Assembly (NCBI RefSeq): GCF_003614185.1
Contig: NZ_KZ987724.1
Location: 4,946,017-4,997,851 of the forward strand
Origin: Paenibacillus aceti
GTDB lineage: Bacteria > Bacillota > Bacilli > Paenibacillales > Paenibacillaceae
Direction of reading: 5' to 3'
DNA length: 51,835 nt
The position numbers were made by a program, and so were the translations under genes. Below the pieces are notes generated by a model. It saw nothing but the letters and a program-made list of their open reading frames with translations. It made no database searches and had not been told where the DNA came from. Shown here one piece after another: positions 31,099 through 49,283 of this stretch (its first letter is position 1; the number at the start of each line of letters is the position of its first letter).

Positions 31099-31217
31099 CC
31101 GATTGCGCTTCAATAAACACAGTACTCCTGTGTTCAGATGATAGATAGCTTGGCTAGTATGTAGCAGCTGCAAGCGGACACCTACCTGATTCCTCGCAGG
31201 TCAATAGCGGTGTCATT

Positions 31218-31476
31218 GAAACAGGCAGGTCTCCTGGCTTCCGGGCCATCACCGGCGCCTTCCCACAGGCTTGCTTAGCTGCAGTGGCATAATGCCGACG
31301 AATCGCTGATAGAGTTTGCGTTCAAAAAGGTCTGGAAATCGACCTGTTGAACACGCTCTGACAGGGCGAATTATCCGCCCTTAAGCTCCCGGTCACAGTG
31401 GCGGGACCGCAGCGGATTTACACCGCGTTTCCCTTTTAAGATCCGGCAGTACAAATTACTCCGAACCACCTGTTCA
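31218..31476 (-). promoter_or_regulatory. Cobalamin (AdoCbl) riboswitch of nrdDG
   Basis: On the minus strand the class I cobalamin aptamer elements occur in order: AACAGGTG, AAAAGGGAAACGCGGTG, AATCCGCTGCGGTCCCGCCA, CTGTGA, GCCACTGCAG, GTGGGAAGG, GATGGCCCGGAAGCCAGGAG and ACCTGCCTG. It is a full-length form with a large peripheral domain. Similar riboswitches are known to shut off B12-independent ribonucleotide reductases when coenzyme B12 can support a class II enzyme. Confidence 0.95.
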
Positions 31477-31523
31477 TACTATATTTGGTTGTCTTTTATC
31501 GATCATAGCCCAATATGTAGTGT
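31476..31523. promoter_or_regulatory. Tandem NrdR boxes
   Basis: Compared with the NrdR consensus ACACWATATATWGTGT, 31508-31523 (GCCCAATATGTAGTGT) matches at 13 of 16 and 31476-31491 (ATACTATATTTGGTTG) at 11 of 16. Their starts are 32 bp apart, the usual three-helical-turn spacing. TATAGT on the minus strand at 31478-31483 is a plausible -10 within the first box. Confidence 0.7.
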
Positions 31524-32355: not shown

Positions 32356-32384
32356 ATTTTTTGTTTCTAATTATAAATGGATAT

Positions 32385-32457
32385 GCTGATGTAGCTCAGT
32401 AGGTAGAGCAACGCACTCGTAATGCGTAGGTCGGTGGTTCGAATCCTCTCATCAGCA
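32385..32457 (+). tRNA. tRNA-Thr (anticodon CGT)
   Basis: Acceptor GCTGATG/CATCAGC pairs perfectly, and the D arm is GCTC...GAGC. The anticodon stem ACGCA with loop CTCGTAA gives anticodon CGT. The T arm is GGTGG-TTCGAAT-CCTCT, with a T-T mismatch at its middle pair. Bases 32410-32457 lie inside the attachment repeat, so the 3' half is now supplied by the integrated element. CCA is not encoded. Confidence 0.92.
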
Positions 32458-32461
32458 TCCT
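32410..32461 (+). repeat. attL, 52-bp direct repeat
   Basis: Identical to 49232-49283 over 52 bp; flanks differ immediately outside (C versus A on the left, A versus T on the right). It covers the anticodon arm through the 3' end of tRNA-Thr plus four bases. Confidence 0.95.
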
Positions 32462-32566
32462 ACCGCATGAATCACGGTGTTACAGCGTTAAATGCTTCGG
32501 TAAGGCTAGCGTAAGGGCTACGCACTCCCGGTCAGAAAACGGATGTACGTCGGTGTAAATACGAAG

Positions 32567-32595
32567 CCCCCTGCAAACAATCGTAGGGGGTTTTT
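32567..32595 (+). terminator. Terminator hairpin overlapping the integrase ribosome binding site
   Basis: CCCCCT (32567-32572) pairs with AGGGGG (32585-32590), then TTTTT. It ends four bases before the integrase start. The stem's right arm is also the only ribosome binding site for the integrase. It probably ends the tRNA-Thr transcript, which lost its own terminator to the far side of the element. Confidence 0.65.
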
Positions 32596-32598
32596 ACT

Positions 32599-33654
32599 AT
32601 GTCCATTGATCCGCGCAAGGGTAAAAAGAGGATTGACTTTAAACCAAGACCGTCCGCGAAAAAGAACGAGCCTATTCCGCTTGATCTCGCGTTCAACCTT
32701 TTCTATAGCGCAAAGAGAGCGGAGAAGGTTCGTGAAAGAACGCTCGCGGACTATAGGAGTTACTGGCGGTATTTCTGCGAGTGGTTAGACGAATATCATC
32801 CGGATATTGACGATGTTAGTTACATTAATACGGAGTTGCTTCGCGGATACCTTGATTACATGTCGTTCGAGCATACGCGGTATAAGGACGATCCGTACCG
32901 CAAAAAGGACGACAGAAAACTATCGGCCGCGACCGTAAAGTCAAGGCTCCGCGCATTACAAACGATGTGTAAGTTTTGGAGTACTGAGGGAATAATCGCG
33001 GACAACCCAACCGAGAAGATCAAGCCGCCTCGAGTGGATGAAACGGATAAAAACATATTTACAGACGATCAGCTATCCGCCTTATTGAACGCGCCTGATA
33101 CGAGTACATACGTCGGGTTCCGCGATATTACTTTGATGATGCTTCTCGCGGATACTGGGCTTAGGATCAACGAGGCGCTACGCTTGGTGACATCGCATTT
33201 TGACTTTGCGGCCCGCTGTATACGGCTTCCTGCATCACTTAACAAGAACCGTAAGCCGCGCATAGTTCCGATGTCTGCGCCAGTTGTCCGCGAAATAATA
33301 AGGCTAATAGAAGAAACGCAATCCTATTTTGATACCGATTGTATATTTGTTTCGGTGTATGGCGACCCGCTAAAAGCCGACCATTTTAGAAAGCAACTCA
33401 TTAAGTACGCGAAAATAGCCGGGATAGATACGGAAACGACGAAAGTAACCCCGCACCGGTTCCGCGACTACTTTATAACGAACTACTTAGTAAACGGTGG
33501 AGACTTGTTCACCTTGCAGCGCATCGTCGCGCACGCAGACATTAAGACCACGCAGGGATATGTCAGAGTTAACGAGGAAGTGATGCGCGATAGTCATTCG
33601 CAATACTCCCAGCTTGCTAACTTAAAGGTATCTAAAAAAGTGAGGCGTAAATAG
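32599..33654 (+). CDS. int: Tyrosine recombinase integrase
   Basis: A 351-residue phage integrase. The SAM-like core-binding domain covers about residues 25-145 (RTLADYRSYWRYFCEWLDEY), and the catalytic domain about 155-335. The catalytic set is visible: Arg189 in DTGLRINEAL, His286 and Arg289 in PHRFRD, His312 in VAHADIK and Tyr321 in TQGY, with His and Tyr nine apart as usual. The basic N-terminus (RKGKKRIDFKPRPSAKK) could bind arm sites. It lies 137 bases from attL and reads into the element. The ribosome binding site is inside a hairpin, so translation may be restrained. Confidence 0.93.
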   Translation: MSIDPRKGKKRIDFKPRPSAKKNEPIPLDLAFNLFYSAKRAEKVRERTLADYRSYWRYFCEWLDEYHPDIDDVSYINTELLRGYLDYMSFEHTRYKDDPYRKKDDRKLSAATVKSRLRALQTMCKFWSTEGIIADNPTEKIKPPRVDETDKNIFTDDQLSALLNAPDTSTYVGFRDITLMMLLADTGLRINEALRLVTSHFDFAARCIRLPASLNKNRKPRIVPMSAPVVREIIRLIEETQSYFDTDCIFVSVYGDPLKADHFRKQLIKYAKIAGIDTETTKVTPHRFRDYFITNYLVNGGDLFTLQRIVAHADIKTTQGYVRVNEEVMRDSHSQYSQLANLKVSKKVRRK

Positions 33655-33677
33655 AACCGTTAGTATAACTCGATAGG

Positions 33678-33706
33678 TTGACTACTCATGTATAGTTTGG
33701 TAATAT
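33678..33706 (+). promoter_or_regulatory. Promoter for the element's riboswitch transcript
   Basis: TTGACT (33678-33683) and TAATAT (33701-33706) are 17 bp apart. The transcript would start near 33713, about 20 bases before the cobalamin aptamer. Confidence 0.6.
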
Positions 33707-33730
33707 TATCATAGAAAATTTTATAGTTTG

Positions 33731-33857
33731 TATTAGGTGCTTTGGTCTGTATAGACTAGGGCTTAAAAGGGAAACGCGGTGAAACTCCGCTGCGGTTATT
33801 ATAACCACTGTATTCGAATATGTTTGAATTTTCGATAGCCAGGAGACCTGCCTAACA
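33731..33857 (+). promoter_or_regulatory. Short cobalamin riboswitch inside the phage-like element
   Basis: Core elements occur in order: TTAGGTGC, AAAAGGGAAACGCGGTGAAA, CTCCGCTGCGG, AACCACTGTA, then AGCCAGGAGACCTGCC. The core is nearly identical to that of the nrdDG riboswitch. The usual CCCGCC is replaced by a small hairpin (GGTTA/TAACC), and the large peripheral arm with GGGAAGG is missing, with only TTCGAATATGTTTGAA in its place. It resembles compact cobalamin riboswitches lacking the peripheral domain. It controls the 32-residue gene at 33974 through the terminator at 33835-33910. Confidence 0.85.
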
Positions 33858-33910
33858 CTTACCGGACCCGTAAGGGGTAGGTTTTGTGTTGGCGTCTCTT
33901 GGCTATTTTT
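33835..33910 (+). terminator. Riboswitch terminator that uses the aptamer's own 3' strand
   Basis: ATAGCCAGGAGAC (33835-33847) pairs with GTCTCTTGGCTAT (33894-33906), with one G-U pair, and TTTT follows. Inner pairs GCC/GGC and AACAC/GTGTT extend the stem. The left arm is the conserved AGCCAGGAGAC of the aptamer, so aptamer and terminator cannot form together. Confidence 0.75.
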
Positions 33911-33973
33911 GTCGTCTCACACCACCCTCTTTCTGGCGTCTGGAATCTTATTTTGACGCGGGAGGTGTGAACA

Positions 33974-34072
33974 ATGGAGAACAGACAGTTGGAAATTGTA
34001 TTAAAAGTAGTTGAAGTGACGGCCTTAATTATTTTTGGCATCATCGGAATTGTTATTAGTTTAATTCAATAA
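33974..34072 (+). CDS. Small membrane protein, 32 aa, under cobalamin riboswitch
   Basis: The peptide is MENRQLEIVLKVVEVTALII followed by FGIIGIVISLIQ. It has a short charged start and one hydrophobic segment covering about residues 9-31. A strong ribosome binding site, GGGAGGTG, lies 6 bases before ATG 33974. A terminator follows at 34096, so it forms its own transcription unit with the riboswitch. Size and layout recall holin-like type I toxins or small membrane regulators, but it does not match the toxin at 50134. Too short for most gene finders. Function unknown. Confidence 0.7.
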   Translation: MENRQLEIVLKVVEVTALIIFGIIGIVISLIQ

Positions 34073-34095
34073 TAAGTAGATGAGTGCTTTCGAAC

Positions 34096-34150
34096 AAAAA
34101 AGAGCGCAGGTCTGCGGATTAAGTTCCGTTGGGCCTGCGCTCTTTTTTCG
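34096..34150. terminator. Terminator after the small membrane protein gene
   Basis: AAAAAAGAGCGCAGGTC pairs with GGCCTGCGCTCTTTTTT. It can act for both strands and also lies downstream of the reverse-strand repressor gene. Confidence 0.88.
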
Positions 34151-34255
34151 TTTAAATAGACGTCCGTATATCGTACCCTAGCATTTATATTCCTCCGCTG
34201 TTAGAGCCGCTAATTTCCCGCCTAGATTCGCTAAAACCACGTCATAGATTCCTCA

Positions 34256-34477
34256 TTACTCCGTATCATCAGGAACGAAGTCTATTAATAGGCGGATGTC
34301 CATGATTTCTAATGCGTCAGCAATCTTCTCTAACATTTCTAAGTTGACTTCTTGTCGTTTAGGACTGCATAACTTGGAAATCCTCGCCTGTGCAACTCCG
34401 CTAAGCCCTGATAACTCGTTTTGCGTGACTCCCCGCTCTTTAAGTAGTTCCTTGAGTTTAACCTTAATTCTAAGCAC
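34256..34477 (-). CDS. XRE family repressor of the element
   Basis: A 73-residue helix-turn-helix protein: MLRIKVKLKELLKERGVTQN, then ELSGLSGVAQARISKLCSPK, the recognition helix region being VAQARISKLC. RQEVNLEMLEKIADALEIMD completes the HTH_3-like fold. GTG 34477 is preferred because AAGGGGGAA lies just upstream; an ATG 93 bases further up would run through the operator region. It is transcribed leftward, opposite to the early genes, with two long repeats between. This is the usual arrangement for a lysogeny repressor, although the protein is very short. Confidence 0.82.
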   Translation of the reverse strand: MLRIKVKLKELLKERGVTQNELSGLSGVAQARISKLCSPKRQEVNLEMLEKIADALEIMDIRLLIDFVPDDTE

Positions 34478-34489
34478 AAAAATTCCCCC

Positions 34490-34551
34490 TTGACATAATA
34501 TGACCATAAGCGTATATTTAGGATAAGAAATATGACCATAAGCGTATATTT
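34490..34551. promoter_or_regulatory. Rightward early promoter with twin operators
   Basis: TTGACA (34490-34495) and TATATT (34513-34518) are 17 bp apart on the plus strand. Two exact 22-bp repeats, 34498-34519 and 34530-34551, begin ATATGACCATAAGCG and end TATATTT; their starts are 32 bp apart. The first covers the spacer and -10, so the repressor encoded next door probably shuts this promoter. Confidence 0.82.
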
Positions 34552-34641
34552 TCTGAGATAAGCATATCACTATTTTACAGAAAAAGCCACAACTTTCTGC
34601 TTATTTAGTCATGCCTATTTTTTTGACAAGGGGGCCGGAGC

Positions 34642-34734
34642 ATGTACCGCGGAGGTAGACAAATCGATGGAAGGCTCTATGTAAGGACTCGCGGCGGAAA
34701 TTGGATCGCGCTGCAGTTACTAATTCATAACTAA
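34642..34734 (+). CDS. Small hypothetical protein, 30 aa
   Basis: First frame after the early promoter: MYRGGRQIDGRLYVRTRGGN then WIALQLLIHN. GGGGGCCGGAGC precedes ATG 34642. It is basic and glycine-rich. Only 14 bases separate it from the next gene, consistent with an operon. No family recognised; coding status is moderately supported by position and ribosome binding site. Confidence 0.45.
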   Translation: MYRGGRQIDGRLYVRTRGGNWIALQLLIHN

Positions 34735-34748
34735 GGGGGATATTCGAT

Positions 34749-34976
34749 ATGGTAAAAAAAATTAAGCTCGATGGATGTGACGCATTTTTGATTAAGGATG
34801 ATTTGTACGTGCTTATTAACCTTGAGGATGAATGTGCGGTTATAGCGAGGATGTCCGAGATTGGTGGTAAGCCAAAGGGTATGTGCTTAGAAAGCCCGAT
34901 CAGTTTGAAGGCACTTCACAAAATCCTTACCGCGGACAATGAACTAGACATATTAATCGCGGCATTGGAGGGGTGA
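34749..34976 (+). CDS. Hypothetical early protein, 75 aa
   Basis: A small acidic, soluble protein, MVKKIKLDGCDAFLIKDDLY then VLINLEDECAVIARMSEIGG, which looks like a compact alpha/beta fold. AAGGGGGATATTCG precedes ATG 34749. It is followed after four bases by the next gene. No family recognised. Its place in the rightward early operon suggests a regulatory or takeover role, but nothing in the sequence shows one. Confidence 0.65.
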   Translation: MVKKIKLDGCDAFLIKDDLYVLINLEDECAVIARMSEIGGKPKGMCLESPISLKALHKILTADNELDILIAALEG

Positions 34977-34980
34977 GACT

Positions 34981-35292
34981 ATGAACTTCGTGAAAGTATT
35001 GGACGAGTACGAAGATCCTAATGTATTCGGAGCGCCTGGCTTTATCGTCCGTGACGGTATCATGTTAAGTCGATCAGTTGCTGTATCCGTTGATCATACT
35101 GGACACGGTACATATTTGATGGTTGAGCGTGTTAAAGAAGTTGACGACGAGGTACACGTGGATATCGAAACTGGACACTTGTTTTTTGATACGGAGTTAC
35201 CGGGTAAGATTTCAGTCCAAAAGCTCGCTTCTATGACCGCGCTTGAGTTCTTGGCAGTCGTTGCAGGAATAGATGGGGAGGCCGCATTATGA
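34981..35292 (+). CDS. Hypothetical early protein, 103 aa
   Basis: An acidic soluble protein containing VFGAPGFIVRDGIMLSRSVA, DHTGHGTYLMVERVKEVDDE and LASMTALEFLAVVAGIDGEA. No catalytic motif is recognised. GGAGGGGTGAGACT precedes ATG 34981, and its stop overlaps the next start by four bases. The last segment (ALEFL) resembles one in the protein at 35669 (SALDFLIDCV), which hints at related C-terminal modules in neighbouring genes. Function unknown. Confidence 0.68.
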   Translation: MNFVKVLDEYEDPNVFGAPGFIVRDGIMLSRSVAVSVDHTGHGTYLMVERVKEVDDEVHVDIETGHLFFDTELPGKISVQKLASMTALEFLAVVAGIDGEAAL

Positions 35293-35504
35293 GAACCGAA
35301 GAACATCGTTATACGTGCGTTCTGGATCGCGCAGGTTGGCGCATCACACTCGATGTATACACGCCGCGACCGGTAACTAGCGAGGAACTGCTACCGCTTG
35401 CTGTCGCAGAGGCAATCGAGGACTTGAAGCTTGTCGGCATCGACGCAGCCCCGGACGAGTTCACGCCAGTTGGTTGGAAGGAGGCGCCGGTTCATGATTT
35501 CTAA
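35289..35504 (+). CDS. Hypothetical early protein, 71 aa
   Basis: MRTEEHRYTCVLDRAGWRIT then LDVYTPRPVTSEELLPLAVA, ending DEFTPVGWKEAPVHDF. Its ATG overlaps the previous TGA, and the end overlaps the next start by 11 bases. The protein is small, soluble and mildly acidic. No family recognised. Tight packing supports genuine translation in the early operon. Confidence 0.62.
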   Translation: MRTEEHRYTCVLDRAGWRITLDVYTPRPVTSEELLPLAVAEAIEDLKLVGIDAAPDEFTPVGWKEAPVHDF

Positions 35505-35685
35505 GCGCATATCATTTTTCACGCGCAAGGCTAACGAATACGGCGACCTCAGATACGATTATTTGCGTGGCCGCTCCGCCAAGAGACCGCCCGCACTTCG
35601 CTATAAACGATTACTTGCTTATAAAGCTGCGGTCACGCAGCAGATCATATCCGAAAGGGGAAATTTACGTGAAGATCAATCTTGA
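35494..35685 (+). CDS. Small basic hypothetical protein, 63 aa
   Basis: MISKRISFFTRKANEYGDLR then YDYLRGRSAKRPPALRYKRL; strongly basic, so nucleic-acid binding is possible. GGAGGCG at 35480-35486 is well spaced for ATG 35494. The open frame extends further back inside the preceding gene without support. The end overlaps the next gene by 17 bases. No family recognised. Confidence 0.5.
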   Translation: MISKRISFFTRKANEYGDLRYDYLRGRSAKRPPALRYKRLLAYKAAVTQQIISERGNLREDQS

Positions 35686-36022
35686 ACGTGTCCTCGTTGT
35701 TGACGGTTGTTTCGGAGACGGTCCGCTAGATTATGAACTCCGGGAGTCTTGGCTCATTCGCAGCGACCTCGCACTATATTTTGTTGGTGACGAACTAGTT
35801 TTACGGTGTGTCGTGCGTCATACTGACGTGGTTAACCATCCGCGACTCTACATAGCAAAGGAACTGAAAGACTCGGTTAGGGTCGCGAAAGGTATCGACC
35901 AAACTGACGAGCTTGTTGCGGAGGTTGCGGCCTGCCTAATACGAATGTCAGCGCTCGACTTTCTTATTGACTGCGTAATGTCCGACCCAATGGCTGGCGA
36001 GGAGTTTCGAGTCGTTAGATAA
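35669..36022 (+). CDS. Hypothetical early protein, 117 aa
   Basis: Starts at GTG 35669 behind GAAAGGGG: MKINLERVLVVDGCFGDGPL. It contains YFVGDELVLRCVVRHTDVVN and ELVAEVAACLIRMSALDFLI. Soluble and acidic, with no recognised domain. The C-terminal SALDFL segment recalls the TALEFL of the protein at 34981. Last gene of the early cluster before the long noncoding region. Confidence 0.62.
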   Translation: MKINLERVLVVDGCFGDGPLDYELRESWLIRSDLALYFVGDELVLRCVVRHTDVVNHPRLYIAKELKDSVRVAKGIDQTDELVAEVAACLIRMSALDFLIDCVMSDPMAGEEFRVVR

Positions 36023-36027
36023 CCCCA

Positions 36028-36385
36028 CGTCTCCGATGAACCTAACCTAAAGGTGCGCTAACACCGTAAAGGGGAGGAGACGCCAGGTCATTGTTTCAAG
36101 CCCCGCAGTATCTCGCGGCGCCAAACGTGGGATACAGGACCATGCGGGACTCTTTAAACGTCGAGGAGCGCCAACTGCTCGGCAAATCGTGCCATGAGGC
36201 ACGGTTCTAATCCGGCCGGTAGTGATTCGCGCCAACGTTTCGACTATCGACCGGCGTACGCTAATTCCTGCGGCTCGGGCGCGGCAACGCCCGGATCGTG
36301 AGGCCGCATTTATCGATATATCATAGGTTACAAGCAAGCGGGCGGCCGGGTCAAACCGGTTCAGGCACCGCTCGTTTGCGTTTAT
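36028..36385 (+). ncRNA. Candidate structured noncoding RNA region
   Basis: No gene fits here, but strong hairpins follow one another. They are CGTCTCC/GGAGACG (36028-36034 with 36076-36082), GGTG/CACC inside it, CGTGCC-ATGA-GGCACG (36188-36203), GCCGGT/ACCGGC (36215-36220 with 36250-36255), CGGGCG/CGCCCG (36276-36293), and GCAAGCG/CGTTTGC (36334-36340 with 36373-36379) enclosing CCGG/CCGG. Large structured RNAs occur in phages, and this region has that character. The class and the transcribed strand are not known; replication or packaging DNA structure is an alternative. Confidence 0.4.
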
Positions 36386-36555
36386 ATAGAGTAATACGCA
36401 GGAACATACGTTTGGTTTCGCTAATTTAAAAAATAATTTTCGCTGATAAAATATTATTGTTCACAAATTAGACACAAAAACAGAGAATTACCAAATAATG
36501 GGCGTACCTTTTTTTAAAAGTAGTGTCCGTATTAATTATGTAGAGGAAATTTCCT

Positions 36556-36755
36556 CGAAAAGTGTGCGAGGCTAAAATTTCTCGGAAATAATACTTTAAC
36601 TGTGCGAAACGATAACAAGCGTCGTTTATTTGTTTGAAAGGTGTGCAAATGCGCGTCGTGGCGTGGATGTATAAATAGAGGTCACGAAAAAAAGTATCGT
36701 AAATCTGTGCGAAAACGAATCGACCGGCAACATAGTACATGAAAGGTGTGCGACG
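36556..36755. repeat. Iteron-like repeats before the replication-type gene
   Basis: TGTGCG or TGTGCA cores recur at 36563, 36601, 36642, 36706 and 36747, several inside a longer GAAAGGTGTGCGA-like unit (36556, 36636, 36741). They sit in AT-rich DNA directly upstream of the winged-helix gene at 36845. This is the layout of a replication origin beside its initiator, or of an operator array. Confidence 0.5.
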
Positions 36756-36844
36756 GAGGTGTAAAGGTTTGTATATTACATTAGGCGAGATAGAATAGCG
36801 GTCATTCCGCTTACTATAAAAACTAATCAAAGGGAGGCGCGGCA

Positions 36845-37264
36845 ATGAATGAGCTTCAACGTCTGGCGCAAATTGCGATACAGCAGAAAGAGGGCGTATT
36901 AGGGAGTGAACGAGGCGGATACTCTCCGTCCCTTCACGACTTGTTCCGTGTTCAGTTACGTGAATTAGGCGAGAAATATGATAGAAGGTCGGCGCGCGAT
37001 GCAATTTTCCTTCTCCTTTATCTTCACGCGTACGTAAACGGGACGGAGTCGAACGATTATTACATGTGGGCGTTCCCGACTGTTGAACAGATTCGCGCGG
37101 ACACAGGTATTCACGGGGATCGAATTAAGCCGCTTTGTAGCTTGCTAGAGTCAGAGGGACTATTGATTACGAAAATGATTGCTTGGCACGGGAACCCCAA
37201 GAAGATGTATTTACCACTTTTCTACCCATTTGATGGTGCAATTCCCGTAAACGGAGCAGCTTAA
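36845..37264 (+). CDS. Winged-helix replication-type protein
   Basis: A 139-residue protein. The segment LHAYVNGTESNDYYMWAFPT, then VEQIRADTGIHGDRIKPLCS, then LLESEGLLITKMIAWHGNPK, is an HTH_36-like winged helix. Its recognition helix is near TGIHGDRIKPLCSLLESEGLL and its wing follows. Proteins with this domain serve as replication initiators or DnaD-like helpers in Firmicute phages and islands. ATG 36845 follows AAAGGGAGGCGCGGCA. The iteron-like repeats lie immediately upstream. No helicase or helicase loader follows, so replication would depend on the host. Assignment is by domain and context. Confidence 0.55.
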   Translation: MNELQRLAQIAIQQKEGVLGSERGGYSPSLHDLFRVQLRELGEKYDRRSARDAIFLLLYLHAYVNGTESNDYYMWAFPTVEQIRADTGIHGDRIKPLCSLLESEGLLITKMIAWHGNPKKMYLPLFYPFDGAIPVNGAA

Positions 37265-37503
37265 TCCTGTATTCGGGAGCCGACTAAATCCCGTATTCAG
37301 GAAGGTAATAATAACGAACTTAACAAAAACGAATTAACAAGAATAAATATACCGCTTCGGTTTCTATCGAAACCTTACGGGACTGTTAGATGATATATTA
37401 ATACATCTTTTACCGCGGAATAGAGTACTTGAGATAAAAGATAACAAGATACAGCTCGATCCCGGTTGCGGGAATCGCTGCTTATTATGGGGAGGTTAAC
37501 CGC
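37265..37503. other. Intergenic region with short direct repeat
   Basis: AATCCTGTATTCGGGAG (37264-37280) and AATCCCGTATTCAGGAA (37287-37303) are two near-identical 17-bp copies just after the winged-helix gene. Poly-purine DNA follows (AACGAACTTAAC type). GGGGAGGT at 37488-37495 is the ribosome binding site of the next gene. Confidence 0.4.
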
Positions 37504-38334
37504 TTGGACAAATCTTGCGAAATGTATCCGAATATGAAACGCTCCGACTACCGCCGCCACGCCGCCCATCCGTTAAGTATACGTTTAAAAGTTTCCGAAG
37601 AGTCCGCAGACCACGCAATGAAATATTTTCACGATACACACGTTCCCTATACAGGCCATTTGCCGACTTACTCTGAATGGAGACGCGTAGAACGGTTGAA
37701 TGACTATGTTCTCGCGGAAGACCACAAGAAAGGCTTATCACTCCGGGATCGCGCGAAACCTGAGCCGGAAAAGGACGAGATATACCCGCAAGTTGGGAGT
37801 TGCGCCCGCCAGCTTATGGATTATCAATACTATCTCGAGTGTGTAGGGCGAGAGCTTTCCGAAATTGAGCGGCGGAGGGTCAAGGTTTGCGCCGTTTGTG
37901 GTTGCGAATTTATGGATCGATCTCGCCGGAATAATGCGTTAGTGTGCCGCTATCCTTGTCTAAAAACATACGGAAATATTAAAAAGCGTCGGCAACGAAA
38001 CGACGGTGATCCACGTTTAATGCGTTATCGTGAACGCCAGGAATTGGAGTATCCGTTCTATTCTCCTGCCGAGTTGTTTGAAATATCTCAACGCGGGGAA
38101 ACAGCATCCGAAGATATTGGAGACGCAATAACAATAGTGAAGCTGCGGCAGGAGCTAGGGAGACGCGTTCCGACCGAAATCACAATGGACGACGAATTTG
38201 GATACTTTCCAAACTCTCATAAGAGATGGCGTTCGGAAGAAGAGGCGAAAGAGCTGGCTGGGCCGGTCGTCATTTATAATCTGCAGCAAGAGCGGGAGGA
38301 AGAGACAGACTTTTACCTGGGACATGTATCCTAA
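37504..38334 (+). CDS. Hypothetical protein with Cys-rich zinc-binding segment, 276 aa
   Basis: The start is TTG 37504, eight bases after GGGGAGGT; the next in-frame ATG is too far. A central segment, VCAVCGCEFMDRSRRNNALV followed by CRYPCLKTYGN and the basic IKKRRQR, has the CX2C...CX3C pattern of a small zinc ribbon or finger. It resembles those that recognise nucleic acid near methyltransferase or replication genes. The flanks are charged and soluble. No enzymatic motif is seen. It follows the replication-type gene and may act with it. Confidence 0.6.
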   Translation: MDKSCEMYPNMKRSDYRRHAAHPLSIRLKVSEESADHAMKYFHDTHVPYTGHLPTYSEWRRVERLNDYVLAEDHKKGLSLRDRAKPEPEKDEIYPQVGSCARQLMDYQYYLECVGRELSEIERRRVKVCAVCGCEFMDRSRRNNALVCRYPCLKTYGNIKKRRQRNDGDPRLMRYRERQELEYPFYSPAELFEISQRGETASEDIGDAITIVKLRQELGRRVPTEITMDDEFGYFPNSHKRWRSEEEAKELAGPVVIYNLQQEREEETDFYLGHVS

Positions 38335-38409
38335 TAGGTGGGGAGAGAACTGACGTTCTTTTATTTGCCCCGATAGTAACGATTATGACATTAAAGGGGG
38401 TTTGTAACA

Positions 38410-38634
38410 GTGAACGGGGTGGCCGTAAGAGCGGTAAGAATAAGTAAAGGAATGACGCAGGAGGGTTTCGCCAAGATTTTAAATGTATCGCGATCATGTA
38501 TTGCCGCAGTGGAGAGCGGGTTCAGGCCCGTATCTCCTGCATTGCGAATTAAGATCGCGCAGGCATTCGGGACTGGCGAAGATATTACCGAAGCTATCAC
38601 GCGGGCCCGAGAGTCCGAAAAACTAGCGCTGTAA
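38410..38634 (+). CDS. XRE family helix-turn-helix protein, 74 aa
   Basis: GTG 38410 follows AAAGGGGG. MNGVAVRAVRISKGMTQEGF then AKILNVSRSCIAAVESGFRP is a clear HTH_3 domain (residues 4-58) with recognition helix around SRSCIAAVES. The C-terminal part is a short acidic tail. It lies mid-element in the forward direction, before the structural genes, and could be the switch to their expression. A second regulator distinct from the repressor at 34256. Confidence 0.78.
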   Translation: MNGVAVRAVRISKGMTQEGFAKILNVSRSCIAAVESGFRPVSPALRIKIAQAFGTGEDITEAITRARESEKLAL

Positions 38635-38722
38635 TAGGCGCTTTTTATTTTGCAATATCACTCTATTATATTACCGTGTTAATTAATTATAGTTTAATAA
38701 CTTTAAGGAAGGATGATGTCTA

Positions 38723-39079
38723 GTGTTAACGGAGCAGTTTACTCCATCAAACATTGACTTCACAAACAAGGAAACAATCATAACCAGCGTGGAAGCTCGC
38801 GTAGCTGGCTGGAACAAGTATCTTAAGCAAGTGAGGCAAACAGATGTTGACCCACTTCTTCAACAGATGAAGAAATCCAAGCAGGCATATTTCGCCGCCC
38901 TTAACGGGCTAAAAGAGAAGGCGCACGAAATTGCAACTGAGTCCGTCAAACTACAGGATCATATTATCGAGAAATATGCATCTGGCGCGCCTGTTGGCAG
39001 TTTGGACATTAGCTATTCAGCAAACCGCAGCGCTTATATTAGTCAAAACGAAGTAACCAGCCAGAAAGTAATTTATTAA
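38723..39079 (+). CDS. Hypothetical helical protein, 118 aa
   Basis: GTG 38723 behind AAGGAAGG. It has a mostly helical, Lys- and Gln-rich middle (VEARVAGWNKYLKQVRQTDV, then KKSKQAYFAALNGLKEKAHE) compatible with a coiled coil. The C-terminal part is polar (SYSANRSAYISQNEV). Unlike its neighbours its codons are A-rich. No family recognised. It precedes the coiled-coil protein at 39100 and may be structural. Confidence 0.6.
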   Translation: MLTEQFTPSNIDFTNKETIITSVEARVAGWNKYLKQVRQTDVDPLLQQMKKSKQAYFAALNGLKEKAHEIATESVKLQDHIIEKYASGAPVGSLDISYSANRSAYISQNEVTSQKVIY

Positions 39080-39099
39080 AACAATTGGGGGGGATCAGG

Positions 39100-39981
39100 A
39101 TGAGTTATCAAAAAGCAAAAGCAAGCCTTAAGAGAGCGCGTGAAATTGAACAATCATCTAGTAGCATGATGTTGGAATACAAGCGAAAGCTAGCAGATGA
39201 ATTGGCTAAAATTGACGCAGACCGTCGATTCACGGCCGAAGGAAAGGAAGAAGCAAAAGCCGAGATTAAGCAAAAATATGCAATTGAGTTTTTGAAAAAA
39301 TCCCACACAATGAAACAGGAATATGTTGCAAACGTTAAGAAATCGATTCGAGAAGCAGAAAAGGTTATTTACACACCACCTAAAAAGCCGGACGCGGTAA
39401 GACTAGGTAGATTTGAGGATACTTTCAAATCACTTAAGACGGAGCTCATGTTCATAATGTCGAAAAGAGCAGCTTTTGAAAAGTTGCGCGGGTTTACCGA
39501 GGGGCTGGACGATCCGTATCTTGCCAATCGTGTCCGCGAGGATTTTGCGGAGATTGCTTCGAAAATCCTATCGGCACCGGGAGACGATAATATCTCGAAG
39601 GGCGTAGGCGCTGGGGAAATCAAGGTTTCCGCCCGTGCAGAACTCGGCGAGCTGTATGAAGGCTTGCTCAAACCATATCAGAGTGAAGATTTCCGCGGGG
39701 CCAATGAGATCATAGAGGTTGCGAAAATGATCGACGAAGACCCGCGCATCCACCGCAGTCCAATCGTTAATAACGCGGCAAAAGAGGCGTTTGGATCGGA
39801 GTACGCTCGGTATATCAACGATACGGAATCCTTCTTCGCCGCGCATCCGGAGCACATGCCGGAACCATTTGTCGATGAGGAGGGCGACCGCATCCGTCAG
39901 ACTGCGGAGGATGTCGCTTGGGTATACCGGGACGCTGTAAATCCGACGTTGAGTTTAGACGGAAAGGGTGAGGACGAGTGA
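39100..39981 (+). CDS. Coiled-coil protein, scaffold-like position, 293 aa
   Basis: ATG 39100 follows a G-rich site (GGGGGGATCAGG); TTG 39085 in frame is less likely. Residues about 1-95 are strongly helical and charged (KASLKRAREIEQSSSSMMLE, then EAKAEIKQKYAIEFLKKSHT). A globular middle follows, and then an acidic C-terminus ending GKGEDE. Its last codons overlap the start of the scaffold-like gene by four bases. The pair may be a split internal scaffold or a virion-internal protein. No domain is firmly recognised. Confidence 0.55.
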   Translation: MSYQKAKASLKRAREIEQSSSSMMLEYKRKLADELAKIDADRRFTAEGKEEAKAEIKQKYAIEFLKKSHTMKQEYVANVKKSIREAEKVIYTPPKKPDAVRLGRFEDTFKSLKTELMFIMSKRAAFEKLRGFTEGLDDPYLANRVREDFAEIASKILSAPGDDNISKGVGAGEIKVSARAELGELYEGLLKPYQSEDFRGANEIIEVAKMIDEDPRIHRSPIVNNAAKEAFGSEYARYINDTESFFAAHPEHMPEPFVDEEGDRIRQTAEDVAWVYRDAVNPTLSLDGKGEDE

Positions 39982-40226
39982 GCGATGATGTTTTAGAGAT
40001 TGCAAATAAACGCTTGATCCGCGCAGAGTTTTTGATTGCGTCAAGAAATGCCGGAGTCCGGACGGATGCGCTAGATGCTGCGTATAAATTAGCCGATTTG
40101 TCCGGCGTGTCTATCGATGATAGCGGCAAGGTATGGGGAGTTGATGACGCGATTCAAGAACTAAACGCAGAAAGTAAATGGTTATTCGCACCAATTGAGA
40201 AACCAAAGGCGCGGACAATTGGCTGA
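39978..40226 (+). CDS. Phage scaffold GP20-like protein, C-terminal part only
   Basis: GTG 39978 overlaps the previous stop (GTGA). The 82 residues run RAEFLIASRNAGVRTDALDA, then AYKLADLSGVSIDDSGKVWG, then VDDAIQELNAESKWLF. This follows the C-terminal pattern of phage scaffold proteins of the GP20 type (helix, short D-x-x-G-K-V-x-G turn, then Q/I-x-x-L ending in a W/Y-L-F motif). Family members are about 180-200 residues with a long N-terminal coiled coil; here the coiled coil may be supplied by the protein just upstream. No capsid gene follows. Resemblance judged by eye. Confidence 0.5.
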   Translation: MSDDVLEIANKRLIRAEFLIASRNAGVRTDALDAAYKLADLSGVSIDDSGKVWGVDDAIQELNAESKWLFAPIEKPKARTIG

Positions 40227-40276
40227 CCGACAGGAGTGGGCTGGCGTCTTAACAATCGGAAATAGTAAGCAGCAGG

Positions 40277-40298
40277 GCGGGCCTTCGGGTTCGCTTTT
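40277..40298 (+). terminator. UUCG-capped terminator between scaffold-like and tail genes
   Basis: GCGGGCC pairs with GGTTCGC across a TTCG tetraloop, followed by TTTT. It marks the junction where head and tail-tube genes are missing. Confidence 0.7.
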
Positions 40299-40321
40299 AC
40301 TTTTAATCTAGGGGGATAACT

Positions 40322-40687
40322 ATGAGATTTATAAAACCAAAAACGAAAAAATTGACCATCGCTGGGAAGCAAGTCACCGCCTCAAAAATTAAACTTATGC
40401 AGTGGAGCGAGTTGTCGAGGGAACTGCATGTAATTCCCAGGGCTTTGTTAAGCGCGCTCACTGCCGAAAAGGAGGATATTCCTGCGTTTATCTTGGTCGC
40501 GTTAGATCAATCATTAAGTGAGATAGCTAGAATTGTATCCATTCTGACAGGAATTGAACCGGAAGACATAGAGAAGAACGCAACAGCAAGTGAGCTTATC
40601 GAATACTTAAGCGAACTCATTGAGATCAACGAGATAAGATCACTGGCGAAAAAGGTCCGCGCTCTATTTGAAGGGAGTATCTCCTAA
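40322..40687 (+). CDS. Tail assembly chaperone-like protein
   Basis: A 121-residue, mainly helical protein: MRFIKPKTKKLTIAGKQVTA, then MQWSELSRELHVIPRALLSA, then LVALDQSLSEIARIVSILTG. Its position directly before the tape measure gene, with a one-base overlap, is that of tail assembly chaperones (gpG-like) in siphophages. The size also fits. ATG 40322 follows TAGGGGGATAACT. I see no slippery site for a gpG/gpGT-type frameshift, and no second chaperone frame follows. Assignment is by synteny. Confidence 0.55.
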   Translation: MRFIKPKTKKLTIAGKQVTASKIKLMQWSELSRELHVIPRALLSALTAEKEDIPAFILVALDQSLSEIARIVSILTGIEPEDIEKNATASELIEYLSELIEINEIRSLAKKVRALFEGSIS

Positions 40688-43600
40688 TGTCAGAAATGGT
40701 AGATGTCGGGGGCGTTAGGGCTCGTGTTACGGCAGATATTTCAAACTACGCGAGCGCGATGGATCAGGCAAAAGCCAAAGCGCGCGAACTCGGCGAGCAG
40801 AGTAAGAAGGCTGCGGCTGACATCAAAACGATGGGGGATTCGGGCGAGAAAATCGCCCACCTCTCGGCGTCCCTTGAGAATGTTAACGCAAAGATTGAGC
40901 TGCAGCGACGTAAGCTTGCAGAACTAAAGAAACAATACGCAGAGACGTTTAATGCCGCGGATAGGACTAAGCTTGAGCAGCAAATTCTTAATGTCGAAGC
41001 TAACCTTCTCCGGCTAATCAAAGTATCAGATAGTACCGCGGCCCGTCTTAATGCGCTCGATGATGCTGCGGAGAATGCCGGAAAGGGTCTTTCAAGTTTC
41101 GACGATAATTTGAAAGCGATCGGCCTTTCTACGGAGCAGATATCGAAAGTAAGTAAAGCGCTAGGCACAGTTAACGCACGACCGACAGAGGCGCAACTCC
41201 GGGCCGTCCGGGACGAGTTAGTACGCGTCGGTGCCAGCGCCGATCAGATCGAGAAGGTTGAGCGGGAGCTTAAAGGTGTAACGGAGGAAGCTGAGAAGAC
41301 AAAGGCCGGAATTAATGGTCTAAGCGCCGGTTTGTCAGCGTTAGGGGCCGGTGCAGCCGCGTCTAAGATCGTGGATACTATTAAGACGTTAGCCGAGGAA
41401 GCCAACCAACTTAACATGTCGTATCGTGGCGTGTATGCGGTAGCTAAATCGACGAATAATAGCGTCGAGGATTCCGTTGGTTTAGTCGAGGAGTTATCGG
41501 AACGTTGGAGTTTGAACCGCGCAACGGTTGCGGATACGGTTAAGACGTATTTATCCGCGGGGCTGACGCTCGAGGAAACAAAAAACATGATGATCGCAAC
41601 GGCGGACGCCGCTGCCTATAACCGCGAGGCACATTACACGCTAGAACAAGCAATGTTACAGACCGCACGCGGGATTAAACAAGGTAACTCGAACCTGACG
41701 GACGCGGCCGGGATCACGACGAATTTATCAGTTATGTACGATCGTTTCGCGAAGACTCTCGGCACAACTGCCGGAAAGCTTACGGAAACGGGCAAAATTC
41801 AAGCGGCCTATAACGGAATGATGGCGGAAGCCGCAATGTTTGCCGGTAATGCCGACGAAGCTATGGCGGGCTATGCGGGCACTCAAGCAACATTTAACAG
41901 CACGATTGAACAGGCGCGGACAGAAATAGGCGGCGCTTTTTTGCCGATACTACAGGACCTTCTCGACGGTATAACTCCGCTTATCAAAGGAACGGCTGAA
42001 TGGGCGACGGAGAACAAGGACATCGCGGTAGGGATTGGAGCAGCTTCTCTCGCATTTACATCGTTTATTGCAGTAGTTGGCGCGCTGTCAGCGGCCTTTA
42101 TCGTACTTAAATCCGCGATGGGAGGCGTTGGCCTCTTACTTACACTTGTCGGCGCAGTTGCTGCCGGGGTAACGGCGTATGGTGTGGCCGCAGATAAAGC
42201 AGCAGGTCAGGTTTTGCGACTCGCTCAAAGTCAGGAAGAGCTTAACGCGAAGATGGCCGATTCTCTTTCTTGGACATCTAACGATTTAAAAAACGCACGC
42301 GCTGACATCGAAGAACTTAGGGACATACTTTCAGAACGCGAAAAGTTGCAGAAGAAAATGGAAGAGCTGCAGGCCAAGCTGCCGGATTACTCAAAGGTAA
42401 AGGCCGGTTCCGCTGTAACGATCGATCAAGAACTCGCGAAAGAGATAAACAAAGTGCAGCAGGAAATCGACGCGCTCGATAAATCCCTTCGTAAAATGGA
42501 CTTTGAAACGCCGGAGGAAGCGGCGAAAGCAATCGAACATTTACGTGAGGCGAGCGAGGGCGCCGTTAACGCTATTCTCCAAGAGCAGGACGCGACATTC
42601 CAGCTCGCAGCGACGAACAACGAACGTTTGAAGACGTTGGAAGCGTCGTTGGAAACGTATAAAAGCCTAACCGCACAACAAGAACTGGACGCCGCGCAAA
42701 AGGCAGAGCTGCGCACCGCCACACAATCGTTAACATCAGCCTACCCCGGTCTTCATGCGATGATGGACGAAGAGGGAAACTTGCGGATTGAGAATATCGA
42801 TCTTGCAGAGACGCAGATGGGTGCAGAACGCGACATGCTGGACGCGACCCTCGACTATGAGAATCAACGACTAGAGTCGTTAAGACGAACTACCGAGGAG
42901 CAAAAGAAATCCGTAGAGGCGCAGATCGAGAACTACAAGGCGCTGATGCAGACAATGCTTGACGTTATTAACGCGGATAATGCAACGTCGAATATCGATT
43001 CTTTGAACGCGGAAAAGTTGAGTATCCGAAATGGAAAAAATCTAGACGAGCTTTACGTCGATCAGAATCGGATACAATCCGCCCTTAACGAAATCAACGA
43101 GAGACAAGCGAAGCTAAAAGGCGGAAATATTCCGGGGTCTGGCTCCGGCGGTGGCTCTGCTCTATTCGATCCAGGCAAAGAGAAAGAAAAGAAGCCCAAG
43201 AAGGAAAAGAAGACGAAGTCGGCCGCAGAACTCGCCGCCGAAGCTCGTAAGAAGGCATATGATGCTGATCTTGCGACGATCCGTTTCCAGGCGGAAATGT
43301 TTGATTGGTCAACGGACAAGCAGATTAAGGCTTACGAGAGATTGCGTAAGACTCACGAACGGCATCTCAAGGATACCGTCGACGATCGGCGCACACTCGA
43401 CCTTCAAGTTAAGCGCTTGAACGAGGACACCGTTAAGTCTCAGTTTGATTTCTCTGCGGAATGGATTAAGCAGGAAGAGCGCCGAATGGAGTTATCGGGT
43501 AAATCCGAGAATGAGATTGCGAACATGAAACTTAAGGCGTGGACTCGCGTGAGAGACCGTTATGCCGCAGATTCCGAGTTTTATAAGCGGGCGGATGACC

Positions 43601-44685
43601 AAGTTTACCAGGCGCGTAAGGCGTTGATGGACAAGACCGTGAAGCTCGCGGAGGACAGCGTTAAGGTGCAGAAAGCCTCGATCGAATCCGTCAAAAAAGC
43701 GGAACTTGACGCAATTAAGAAGCGGAAAGAGGCGGCGCTTGCCGATTATGATGCGCGGATCAAAGCTATTGATGAGTTGATCGCGAAGGAAGCGGAATAT
43801 AACTCGGATGTCGATCACGAGACGGCATTGCGTGAGAAGAATGCGCGAATTGACGAACTCGCTTCCGCAGTCGGTCCCGAAGGTATTGCCGAGCGTGAGC
43901 AAGCGATTAAGGACCGCGACCGGATGATTCTCGAACACGAACGGGAACTCCGCAAGCGTGAGCTCGAGTCGCAAAAGGGCGCGATACAGGACGAGAAGAA
44001 TGCGCGATCTGACGCCTTTGATACGGAGATCGCGGAAACCGAAGCGCAGTTTGATAAGTTGATCGACGCTTTTAATTCGTATTCTGGCGATATCAAAATG
44101 ATCGAAGCGGTTCTTGCGGAATTCCGCGTAAGTGAAGCGGGCAAAGCTAACGCGGCTATTCTCGAGGAACTTGATTCGTTTGTTTCGCAGTACAACGCAA
44201 AGATGGCGCAGGTCGAGACACTTCGGACAGCGGACGAACTGGCGGAGTATAACGCGAATAAGGACGCATGGGCGGCCGCTAAAGCACGTGGAGATACGGC
44301 GGAAATGGCACGGCTGAATGTGCGGAACCAAGCGATCCGGGATAAGTACGGCATATTAGAAGATTCCGGACAAAAGTTACAGTCTTTCGCGGTCGGTGGT
44401 ATCGTTCGGGGCGCTAACGGTGAGCCGGTTATCGCGCAGGTACACGCGGGAGAAATGGTACTTAATGCACGGCAGCAGGCCGTATTATTTGACGCGTTAC
44501 AGGGCGCTGCATCGCGGACAGTATCGCAGCCAGGCGGGGCAGTTACGACAACGACAATCACGAACCACTATGATCTTGGCGTGGACGAGGTTGTTCTCGA
44601 AGACAGGGCCGATATAAGGGGATTTTTCGATGAACGGGCACGGTTCGCGCAACGGACACAAAATAGAGGTGATAAGGCAATATGA
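40687..44685 (+). CDS. Phage tail tape measure protein
   Basis: A protein of 1332 residues, the longest in the element. Residues 1-210 are coiled coil. About 215-430 form the TP901-type tape measure core (GINGLSAGLSALGAGAAASK, SYRGVYAVAKSTNNSVEDSV, RGIKQGNSNLTDAAGITTNL). A hydrophobic stretch around 445-500 (GIGAASLAFTSFIAVVGALS) is the usual membrane-insertion region. Long Lys/Glu-rich coiled coils follow to about 1230, with a Gly-rich break near 820. The tail contains SFAVGGIVRGANGEPVIAQV, then HAGEMVLNARQQAVL, the typical C-terminal motif. It sets tail length: 1332 residues at about 0.15 nm each predicts roughly 200 nm. Frame intact. Confidence 0.94.
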   Translation: MSEMVDVGGVRARVTADISNYASAMDQAKAKARELGEQSKKAAADIKTMGDSGEKIAHLSASLENVNAKIELQRRKLAELKKQYAETFNAADRTKLEQQILNVEANLLRLIKVSDSTAARLNALDDAAENAGKGLSSFDDNLKAIGLSTEQISKVSKALGTVNARPTEAQLRAVRDELVRVGASADQIEKVERELKGVTEEAEKTKAGINGLSAGLSALGAGAAASKIVDTIKTLAEEANQLNMSYRGVYAVAKSTNNSVEDSVGLVEELSERWSLNRATVADTVKTYLSAGLTLEETKNMMIATADAAAYNREAHYTLEQAMLQTARGIKQGNSNLTDAAGITTNLSVMYDRFAKTLGTTAGKLTETGKIQAAYNGMMAEAAMFAGNADEAMAGYAGTQATFNSTIEQARTEIGGAFLPILQDLLDGITPLIKGTAEWATENKDIAVGIGAASLAFTSFIAVVGALSAAFIVLKSAMGGVGLLLTLVGAVAAGVTAYGVAADKAAGQVLRLAQSQEELNAKMADSLSWTSNDLKNARADIEELRDILSEREKLQKKMEELQAKLPDYSKVKAGSAVTIDQELAKEINKVQQEIDALDKSLRKMDFETPEEAAKAIEHLREASEGAVNAILQEQDATFQLAATNNERLKTLEASLETYKSLTAQQELDAAQKAELRTATQSLTSAYPGLHAMMDEEGNLRIENIDLAETQMGAERDMLDATLDYENQRLESLRRTTEEQKKSVEAQIENYKALMQTMLDVINADNATSNIDSLNAEKLSIRNGKNLDELYVDQNRIQSALNEINERQAKLKGGNIPGSGSGGGSALFDPGKEKEKKPKKEKKTKSAAELAAEARKKAYDADLATIRFQAEMFDWSTDKQIKAYERLRKTHERHLKDTVDDRRTLDLQVKRLNEDTVKSQFDFSAEWIKQEERRMELSGKSENEIANMKLKAWTRVRDRYAADSEFYKRADDQVYQARKALMDKTVKLAEDSVKVQKASIESVKKAELDAIKKRKEAALADYDARIKAIDELIAKEAEYNSDVDHETALREKNARIDELASAVGPEGIAEREQAIKDRDRMILEHERELRKRELESQKGAIQDEKNARSDAFDTEIAETEAQFDKLIDAFNSYSGDIKMIEAVLAEFRVSEAGKANAAILEELDSFVSQYNAKMAQVETLRTADELAEYNANKDAWAAAKARGDTAEMARLNVRNQAIRDKYGILEDSGQKLQSFAVGGIVRGANGEPVIAQVHAGEMVLNARQQAVLFDALQGAASRTVSQPGGAVTTTTITNHYDLGVDEVVLEDRADIRGFFDERARFAQRTQNRGDKAI

Positions 44686-46775: not shown

Positions 46776-46786
46776 TATTTAATAGT

Positions 46787-46829
46787 GCCTCCACGTTGGG
46801 TATAATTAACAAAAAGGAACAGTGGAGGC
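46787..46829 (+). promoter_or_regulatory. Ribosome-site-masking hairpin with internal promoter
   Basis: GCCTCCAC (46787-46794) is perfectly complementary to GTGGAGGC (46822-46829), which contains the ribosome binding site of the next gene. TATAAT at 46801-46806 lies in the loop. Transcripts reading through from the tail genes would hide the site, whereas a transcript started at the internal promoter would lack the left arm and be free. Confidence 0.55.
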
Positions 46830-46836
46830 GTGACAG

Positions 46837-47298
46837 ATGAAAAAACTAGTTATTACAGCGGTTGCAGCAACCTTTCTACTTTGTGGAACAGTCGTCGGCG
46901 CGGCTGGAAATAGTCTAATCGGTAAGAAAGTAGACGGGATTGCCCAAGTAAATAATAATGGAGAATTGACGGAGGCGAGGGCGATAATCGTTGATGGATC
47001 GGCTTATGTATCCGTGAGAGACGTCGGAAATCTAGCAAATAAAAAGGTAGGATACTCACAGGGGGTTGTATCTTTGGACGATATTTCAAGTTCATCAAGA
47101 GAAAGCATTGAACAGAAGATAAAAAGTAACGAGCAGAGGATAAGTGAGTTAAAGAAGATTCAAGAAGAAGGTTATGAGGTAGAAAAGAACTCGGAATATT
47201 TTAAATATGACCAAAGCGAATCGTATAAAAGAACGAGCCAAGAAATAGAAAATCTTGAGAAAGAAAACGAGGCACTTAAAGAACAACTAAACAAATAA
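46837..47298 (+). CDS. Secreted protein with copper amine oxidase N-like domain; probable cargo gene
   Basis: A 153-residue secreted protein. The signal peptide MKKLVITAVAATFLLCGTVV ends near GAAG. A short stalk-like domain follows, with VDGIAQVNNNGELTEARAII and VDGSAYVSVRDVGNLANKKV, matching copper amine oxidase N-type domains common in Paenibacillus surface and phage proteins. The C-terminal half is a charged coiled coil (residues about 88-152). It has its own -10 region, a ribosome site and a terminator, and sits after the tail operon. This is the pattern of a lysogenic conversion gene. Codons are A-rich compared with the tail genes. Function unknown. Confidence 0.68.
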   Translation: MKKLVITAVAATFLLCGTVVGAAGNSLIGKKVDGIAQVNNNGELTEARAIIVDGSAYVSVRDVGNLANKKVGYSQGVVSLDDISSSSRESIEQKIKSNEQRISELKKIQEEGYEVEKNSEYFKYDQSESYKRTSQEIENLEKENEALKEQLNK

Positions 47299-47300
47299 TT

Positions 47301-47331
47301 AAAGGCCGTCCTTTCGGGGGCGGCTTTACTA
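47301..47331 (+). terminator. Terminator after the cargo gene
   Basis: GCCGTCC pairs with GGGCGGC (one G-T pair) around TTTCGG, followed by TTTACTATTT. Confidence 0.75.
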
Positions 47332-47351
47332 TTTCATTCGGAGGGGATCGC

Positions 47352-48568: not shown

Positions 48569-48592
48569 GACGTAGGGAGTCCGATAGATGTG

Positions 48593-48640
48593 CGCCTGTG
48601 ATAACGTGTAATCATGCGTGTTACAGGCGCTTTATTTTCG
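48593..48640 (+). terminator. Terminator after the TerS-like gene
   Basis: GCGCCTGT pairs with ACAGGCGC, with further pairing between AACGTG-like and CATGCGTGTT inside, followed by TTTATTTT. Confidence 0.75.
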
Positions 48641-49231: not shown

Positions 49232-49283
49232 AACGCACTCGTAATGCGTAGGTCGGTGGTTCGAATCCTCTCATCAGCATCCT
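49232..49283 (+). repeat. attR, 52-bp direct repeat
   Basis: Exact copy of 32410-32461, the original 3' half of tRNA-Thr left at the far end of the element. Confidence 0.95.

Follow-up and report, generated by a model that had tools for sequence, protein, structure and literature searches.

Corrinoid riboswitches are mostly described as repressors. According to the part of PMC10653944 available to us, the first activating one is that of Alkalihalobacillus halodurans cobT, in which P13 is the antiterminator and the kissing loop is required, and all those known earlier repress. Riboswitches have been called rare in phages in the accessible part of PMC9004378, which describes one for glutamine at the tmRNA gene carried by methylophage Melnitz. 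Mobile elements and cobalamin riboswitches do meet elsewhere, as the V. cholerae island GI-23 is inserted in the btuB cobalamin riboswitch (PMC12409358, excerpt), and the available portion of PMC5644110 holds nothing on phage riboswitches. Among the matches listed, no open-licence paper has a title or abstract opening that reports a cobalamin riboswitch carried by a phage and controlling a micropeptide.

Such an arrangement seems to be present in Paenibacillus aceti, in a stretch of 51,835 nt that was analysed as a whole (the window). The explanation that we put forward, tentatively and at close to an even chance, is that a prophage captured an aptamer of the nrdDG type, which would now work as a kinetic ON switch for the membrane peptide of a lysogeny cassette. 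It builds on the match of the aptamer to RF00174, the stability of the terminator and the strands it shares with the aptamer, the conserved and nrdDG-like core, the presence of NrdJ in the genome and a comparable pair in viral contigs.

The element in question is bounded by exact 52-bp repeats, attL (32410..32461, +), overlapping the tRNA-Thr (CGT) gene that is its integration site (32384..32460, +, by ARAGORN), and attR (49232..49283, +) at the right end, and these bear out as a prophage the phage-like element of the original prediction. They enclose about 16.8 kb (32410-49283) opening with a tyrosine integrase (32599..33654, +; Pfam PF00589, 9.4e-31; PHROG integrase), and the riboswitch-peptide unit, lying between this gene and an XRE/Cro-C1 type repressor-like gene (34256..34570, -; PF13443, 1.4e-10; PHROG regulator), would be a lysogeny cassette, or moron. 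Prophage morons have their own promoter and terminator inside the prophage. The corresponding features here, recognized by sequence only, are a promoter-like site, a terminator-like repeat and the att sites around the unit. The prophage encodes a tape-measure protein, a tail endopeptidase and a small terminase, a scaffold match (PF06810) falls below the cut-off (30.8 versus 35 bits), and portal, capsid and large terminase genes were not found among the prophage ORFs tested. It therefore looks like a degraded prophage, which counts against a working switch; a tail-bearing satellite is the alternative view of 32410-49283. The tRNA site may be used repeatedly, as another genome carries beside a tRNA a broken integrase with stops, 66% identical (L108 / L137, G017:C7:5016-5896) and about 6-7 kb from the nrdDG riboswitch of that genome. 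The window also holds a TPP riboswitch (4961-5072, -; 69.2 bits).

The cobalamin aptamer that had been read from the letters alone stands up to a search with Rfam models. Positions 33718..33869 (+) match RF00174 at 62.5 bits (E 3.5e-13, gathering threshold 31.5, model positions 1-189), the weakest and shortest of the four RF00174 matches in its own genome, and an identity as the AdoCbl variant RF01482 was rejected, the leader scoring 19.4 of the 50 bits needed. The aptamer is compact, without the P8-P12 domain, and agrees with the RF00174 consensus in 42/43 strongly conserved columns, B12 box included, in a comparison that omits the P5-loop and P6-P12 columns. Judged in this way it is a real, divergent member of a known riboswitch family, for which corrinoid binding is predicted. 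Its helices, all on the + strand and placed by hand from the covariance model alignment with their pairs checked, are P1 (33730-33738/33850-33858, with one A.C mismatch), P2 (33739-33762), P3 (33768-33770/33847-33849), P4 (33776-33790), P5 (33794-33806) and P6 (33811-33817/33832-33837); the B12 box AGCCAGGAGACCUGCC occupies 33837..33852 (+), and a P13-like hairpin, UUAC-CGGACCC-GUAA, can be drawn by hand at 33859..33873 (+), exclusive with the terminator described below.

The canonical L5-L13 kissing loop (L5 consensus UCCCG) is absent. The CCCG of L5 has been replaced, the host having GGU-CCCGCC and the phage GGU-UAUUAUAACC, and P5 is closed by the self-pairing GGUUAUUAUAACC. The L5-L13 contact is a feature of the studied switches and, being unpaired in the covariance model, is not used for Rfam membership. 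Its loss counts against a working switch, since the two dissected transcriptional switches need the loop (PMC10653944, in the part available). A GGUU x GACC contact between the prophage P5 loop and the P13-like loop is possible on paper only.

The likely parent type is represented in the host by a cobalamin riboswitch upstream of nrdD-nrdG and class I nrd genes (31207..31488, -; RF00174, 86.1 bits). In local alignments to the prophage aptamer, 23 distinct nrdD-linked loci score 45-65 against 32-42 for 31 other cobalamin loci (L001, L002, L045-L073), the former having been drawn by BLAST with the prophage leader and the latter by RF00174 score, with the RF00174 matches of the genus covered in part. 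Two loci, G020 (55) and G021 (44), fall inside the nrd range or slightly under it, and the stretch fetched for each has a transport-type gene (by eye) and lacks nrdD; this overlap and the unlike sampling of the two sets count against the comparison. Prophage and host switches agree in 42/43 strongly conserved but in only 30/70 variable RF00174 columns, a pattern that selection on the binding core would produce. Among the types compared nrdDG leaders come nearest in the core, and the host switch differs from that of the prophage in its length (282 versus 152 nt), its outer domain, its canonical L5, its platform and its position ahead of ribonucleotide reductases (RNRs). These sequence comparisons agree best with capture of an nrdDG-type aptamer whose core was preserved while the remainder changed, an origin that appears well supported and is in line with what had been suspected. 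The nrdD, nrdG and class I nrd genes need no B12. The genome also encodes the B12-dependent NrdJ (573.6 bits, over the cut-off), so cobalamin would report which RNR is usable.

Upstream of the aptamer is a promoter-like site, TTGACT-17-TAATAT with TG ahead of the -10 (33678..33706, +; 9/12 positions matching), which is weak on its own because five such sites occur in 33600-34750 where shuffles lead one to expect 2.5. Downstream, folding predicts an intrinsic terminator (33835..33910, +, with its U-tract reaching 33910) whose left arm is the B12 box plus the 3' strand of P1 and whose basal right arm lies at 33894-33906. Its stem has 13 consecutive pairs (12 Watson-Crick and one G-U, 33835-33847 with 33894-33906), followed by UUUUGU, and the hairpin 33835-33906 has a minimum free energy of -40.7 kcal/mol (z -6.66), equalled by 0/200 shuffles; a simple terminator scan whose rules require a loop of 3-8 leaves it unlisted. 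Between the B12 box and the 150 nt that follow, the longest uninterrupted complementary run is 11 here against 4-10 in 70 other riboswitch rows, of which two are the same switch (L026 and L083) and both with runs of 10 are loci selected by an anti-B12-box pattern. These rows come from 78 loci, eight having been dropped for want of a regex match, including two fetched for their terminator match (L014 and L029). Runs of at least 11 arose in 20/5000 mononucleotide shuffles of the downstream sequence.

Left free to fold, the modelled transcript forms the terminator with a probability of 0.98 when it ends at 33900 and of 1.0 from 33905 on. In the same model, which contains neither ligand nor tertiary contacts, forcing the aptamer fold costs 6-8 kcal/mol relative to the free ensemble at 33860-33880, ahead of the basal terminator arm, and 28-30 kcal/mol relative to the terminator/free ensemble at 33905-33915. 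That the forced fold is worse at all lengths given counts against the proposed switch, and the later difference means that switching could only be kinetic. The terminator uses the strands of P1, P3 and the B12 box, so that on folding grounds it and the ligand-bound fold are mutually exclusive, and cobalamin should for this reason prevent termination. Termination would be the default, the ligand acting only kinetically, because the terminator dominates the free folds and no competing antiterminator shows up in them. By predicted structure, then, the prophage switch should be ON. The original prediction had claimed both the shared strand, which the 13-pair stem bears out, and the ON wiring, which survives as the most direct reading of the mutual exclusion and is weakened by the energetic lead of the terminator and by a second hairpin that stays closed.

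This second hairpin (33914..33972, +) would sequester the Shine-Dalgarno (SD) sequence GGGAGG (33960-33965) of a 32-codon ORF at 33974..34072 (+), whose predicted product is a 32-aa single-helix membrane peptide (MENRQLEIVLKVVEVTALIIFGIIGIVISLIQ; one segment of transmembrane (TM) character). A terminator-like inverted repeat with flanking A6/T6 follows (34096..34148, +, by direct reading), and the single membrane ORF with its own terminator is thus found where it had been reported. It is the sole ATG ORF of 25-45 codons on either strand of the window with both a strong SD and a TM-like segment, two such ORFs having a strong SD at all, and it matches nothing in Pfam (E up to 5) or NCBIfam. A 42-codon GTG-start frame (33886-34014) overlaps the right arm of the terminator and the start of the peptide, and its translation would melt the SD hairpin; as a gene it was judged weak. 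The hairpin has a z of -3.22 (1/200 shuffles) and is also indicated by the SD unpaired probabilities, while the wider stretch of 93 nt over it gives only -1.26 (24/200). In the model the SD is paired in free and aptamer-forced folds alike, folding of the aptamer leaving the hairpin closed; antitermination alone may therefore not give peptide, and read-through RNA would be poorly translated unless the hairpin were opened. Nothing else speaks as strongly against a simple ON switch for the peptide as this modelled hairpin, and the peptide is less certain to work than the RNA switch is. The original prediction had overlooked this hairpin, the loss of the canonical L5 sequence and the failure of relatives of the cassette to turn up.

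Under the explanation that we favour, these parts would act as follows. Stripped of its outer domain and canonical kissing loop, the captured nrdDG-type aptamer would have acquired a new platform. Without cobalamin, the strand of the B12 box and P1 would pair with a complementary strand, the basal part of it about 46 nt downstream, and the transcript would end at about 195 nt (assuming a start near 33714). Cobalamin bound during transcription would hold P1, P3 and J6/3 and so delay the branch migration of the terminator invading from its top, and the polymerase would then read into the gene for the 32-residue membrane peptide with its own terminator. The second hairpin would keep translation low until opened by some further factor.

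Relatives of the cassette were sought widely. No relatives were found by blastn of 33600-34200 against phages and plasmids, and tblastn of the peptide gave no credible relative in 50,697 phage or 72,556 plasmid records. In 296 family genomes the peptide matched itself and ten other genomes at E 0.05-0.86, read as chance, and in 292 family genomes the leader DNA gave its own match plus matches of only 21-32 nt in 9 of 291 others. The B12-box/anti-box pattern occurred in 0 viral contigs and, among 398 phylum genomes, in its own only; three genome-contig stretches with the anti-box pattern turned out to be ordinary RF00174 matches (two without a U-run directly after), and BLAST matches in the genus to the 3' end of the query (L014, L029) to be merely similar terminators. 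The host nrdDG leader had no match in phages, and a scan of viral contigs for the nrd-type core found none. A compact-core pattern matched 47 of 292 family genomes, mostly in unrelated sequence by eye. True compact cobalamin switches without an outer domain occur in three genomes of one genus of the family (G258, G222 and G081; L290, L291, L292), where they keep CCCG in L5 and precede a cob-like operon (by eye), so compactness alone is not new in the family. Near related integrases, no cobalamin riboswitch was found in 20 loci (of 29 non-own) within about 1.5 kb either side of the gene, nor in 8 of the 10 longer stretches fetched (L137 and L138 lie outside that scan). A search for the same pair beside other integrases, as had been proposed, thus gave nothing at the sites scanned; an analogous, non-homologous pair was found in two viral contigs.

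That peptide and leader are without credible relatives counts against the proposed switch and would suit a relic, that is, a fragment of a captured nrdDG leader in a decaying prophage, whose terminator always fires and whose peptide is silent or no gene at all. The loss of CCCG from L5, the occluded SD and the failure to find head genes in the tested ORFs of the prophage point the same way. We nevertheless think a relic unlikely, if far from negligible, as the core is nearly perfect (42/43 conserved columns, while variable columns stand at 30/70), the terminator matches the B12-box strand over 13 pairs and the peptide ORF is the only SD-led membrane mini-ORF of the window.

Type I toxin-antitoxin mRNAs encode a short hydrophobic peptide, have their SD occluded in a structured 5' UTR and are controlled by an antisense RNA antitoxin. 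The first two of these features are present in the prophage unit, the second by folding, and it could accordingly be read as a toxin-like mRNA, translation-inert and controlled by antisense RNA or processing, with cobalamin as an extra gate on a small membrane toxin. The hydrophobicity of the 32-aa peptide (GRAVY 1.47), the SD-sequestering hairpin and a weak antisense promoter-like site (34056-34028, 9/12 positions) would agree with this, but promoter-like sites are not much more numerous than in shuffles (5 versus 2.5) and the peptide is without a family match, and we consider such a toxin improbable. About as improbable is the usual OFF switch, in which cobalamin would reduce expression, perhaps because contacts outside secondary-structure models favour termination or the SD hairpin. 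The corrinoid riboswitches known before that of PMC10653944 do all repress (in the part of it available), and the SD hairpin could be the real platform. In the free fold, however, the terminator has no rival antiterminator through which an OFF switch could work, and the ligand-bound aptamer and the terminator use the same strand.

The pairing of a cobalamin aptamer with a phage peptide, as in our preferred explanation, has a counterpart in the viral contigs L090 (35.6 kb) and L092 (33.7 kb). Both carry full cobalamin riboswitches (112.0 and 103.9 bits), directly followed by an ORF, MSYSEFSEAISAFFAHPF[VI]LALVPVL[LI]GWYLNREKAKD[EK], for a conserved 39-residue membrane peptide. They are two of at least 8 loci retained by a core-plus-box screen of 245 viral loci among the matches listed, 5 of the 8 being confirmed by Rfam and three (L098, L195, L342) lying outside that scan. 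A collection of 5.8 billion proteins holds two more 39-aa relatives, the L090 peptide and these two being 92, 87 and 85% identical to that of L092; a protein-pattern scan of the viral contigs found no others. The L090 and L092 codons differ by eight single-base changes, five of them silent and three not (V-I, L-I and, in the final residue, E-K), a pattern suggestive of a real gene. Terminase large subunit genes are present on both contigs, and neighbours of the cassette are a SIR2-HerA pair in L090 (7572-10813) and an AlbA_2/Schlafen-like gene in L092 (7190-7884); the surroundings are perhaps a defence hotspot of these phages. In a search limited to plasmids, the L092 aptamer matched 133 rhizobial-plasmid records; eight of the 20 listed were fetched (identity 72-79% across some 45% of the 441-base query, with 14 records in identity bands above 80% outside those 20), and 8/8 lead into nrdI and nrdE, the peptide being absent. 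Folding with P1 forced or the strand blocked favoured neither ON nor OFF for L090 and L092.

Like the prophage unit, these cassettes are phage-borne and have a single-helix micropeptide after an RNR-type aptamer, in their case nearest to nrdI-nrdE leaders among the fetched plasmid relatives, but the peptide is non-homologous, the aptamer is of full length and the start codon lies about 60 nt past the box. A second phage group thus seems to have coupled a membrane micropeptide to a cobalamin aptamer of the RNR type, and on two or more occasions phages apparently recruited RNR cobalamin riboswitches for gating such peptides.

Other viral contigs bear cobalamin riboswitches in other settings. The last 160 bases of IMGVR_UViG_3300006051_000038 (L408) resemble, by eye and pattern, a switch of the L090/L092 type, inside which this third contig ends, so that whatever it controls is cut off. 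IMGVR_UViG_2524614537_000001 (L089) has a full cobalamin riboswitch (11299-11488, -; 125.5 bits); a tyrosine recombinase follows some 200 nt downstream, at the edge of the contig, which looks like a prophage insertion just behind a host riboswitch. One contig (L085:11181-13725) has a cobalamin riboswitch ahead of a TonB-dependent receptor and another (L098, - strand, ORF 228-3146), by regex only, ahead of a 972-aa ribonucleotide reductase.

It is conceivable, if doubtful, that temperate phages of unrelated bacteria have repeatedly captured cobalamin riboswitches of RNR operons and given them new platforms (with the sign inverted in the case of P. aceti), coupling a membrane micropeptide to the coenzyme B12 state and hence to which RNR supplies dNTPs, and that the prophage switch is a second natural activating corrinoid riboswitch, one working without the canonical kissing loop. 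Were this so, a mobile element would be reading the B12 status of its host through a stolen host sensor with its logic reversed, prophage gene expression would be linked to nucleotide metabolism, and the switch would offer a compact, natural platform of the activating corrinoid kind, its terminator invading the aptamer itself. With the second, non-homologous phage pair the arrangement becomes a class open to testing rather than a single oddity, and the prophage switch bears on how far a cobalamin switch can dispense with the L5-L13 kissing loop.

Within the open-licence matches listed, the platform and target of the prophage switch were not found in print, and the systems described share some of its features. 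The Melnitz switch is phage-encoded too, but has another class of ligand and no micropeptide (PMC9004378, accessible part). GI-23 is likewise a mobile element that meets a cobalamin riboswitch, but there a host riboswitch was invaded and none is carried for a gene of the island itself (PMC12409358, excerpt). The novelty suggested in the original prediction has to be narrowed, as ON wiring alone is not new, an activating corrinoid riboswitch having been published (PMC10653944, in the part available). In that cobT switch of A. halodurans, as is predicted for P. aceti, a ligand-stabilised fold and a terminator exclude each other and control is transcriptional and activating. The two differ in that P13 overlaps the terminator and L5-L13 is needed in the cobT switch, whereas in the prophage the terminator takes the B12 box and the 3' strand of P1, with no canonical L5, and the target would be a prophage micropeptide instead of cobT. 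Since no canonical L5 kissing loop stabilises its P13, we do not file the prophage switch as a cobT type and say only that it would work like one.
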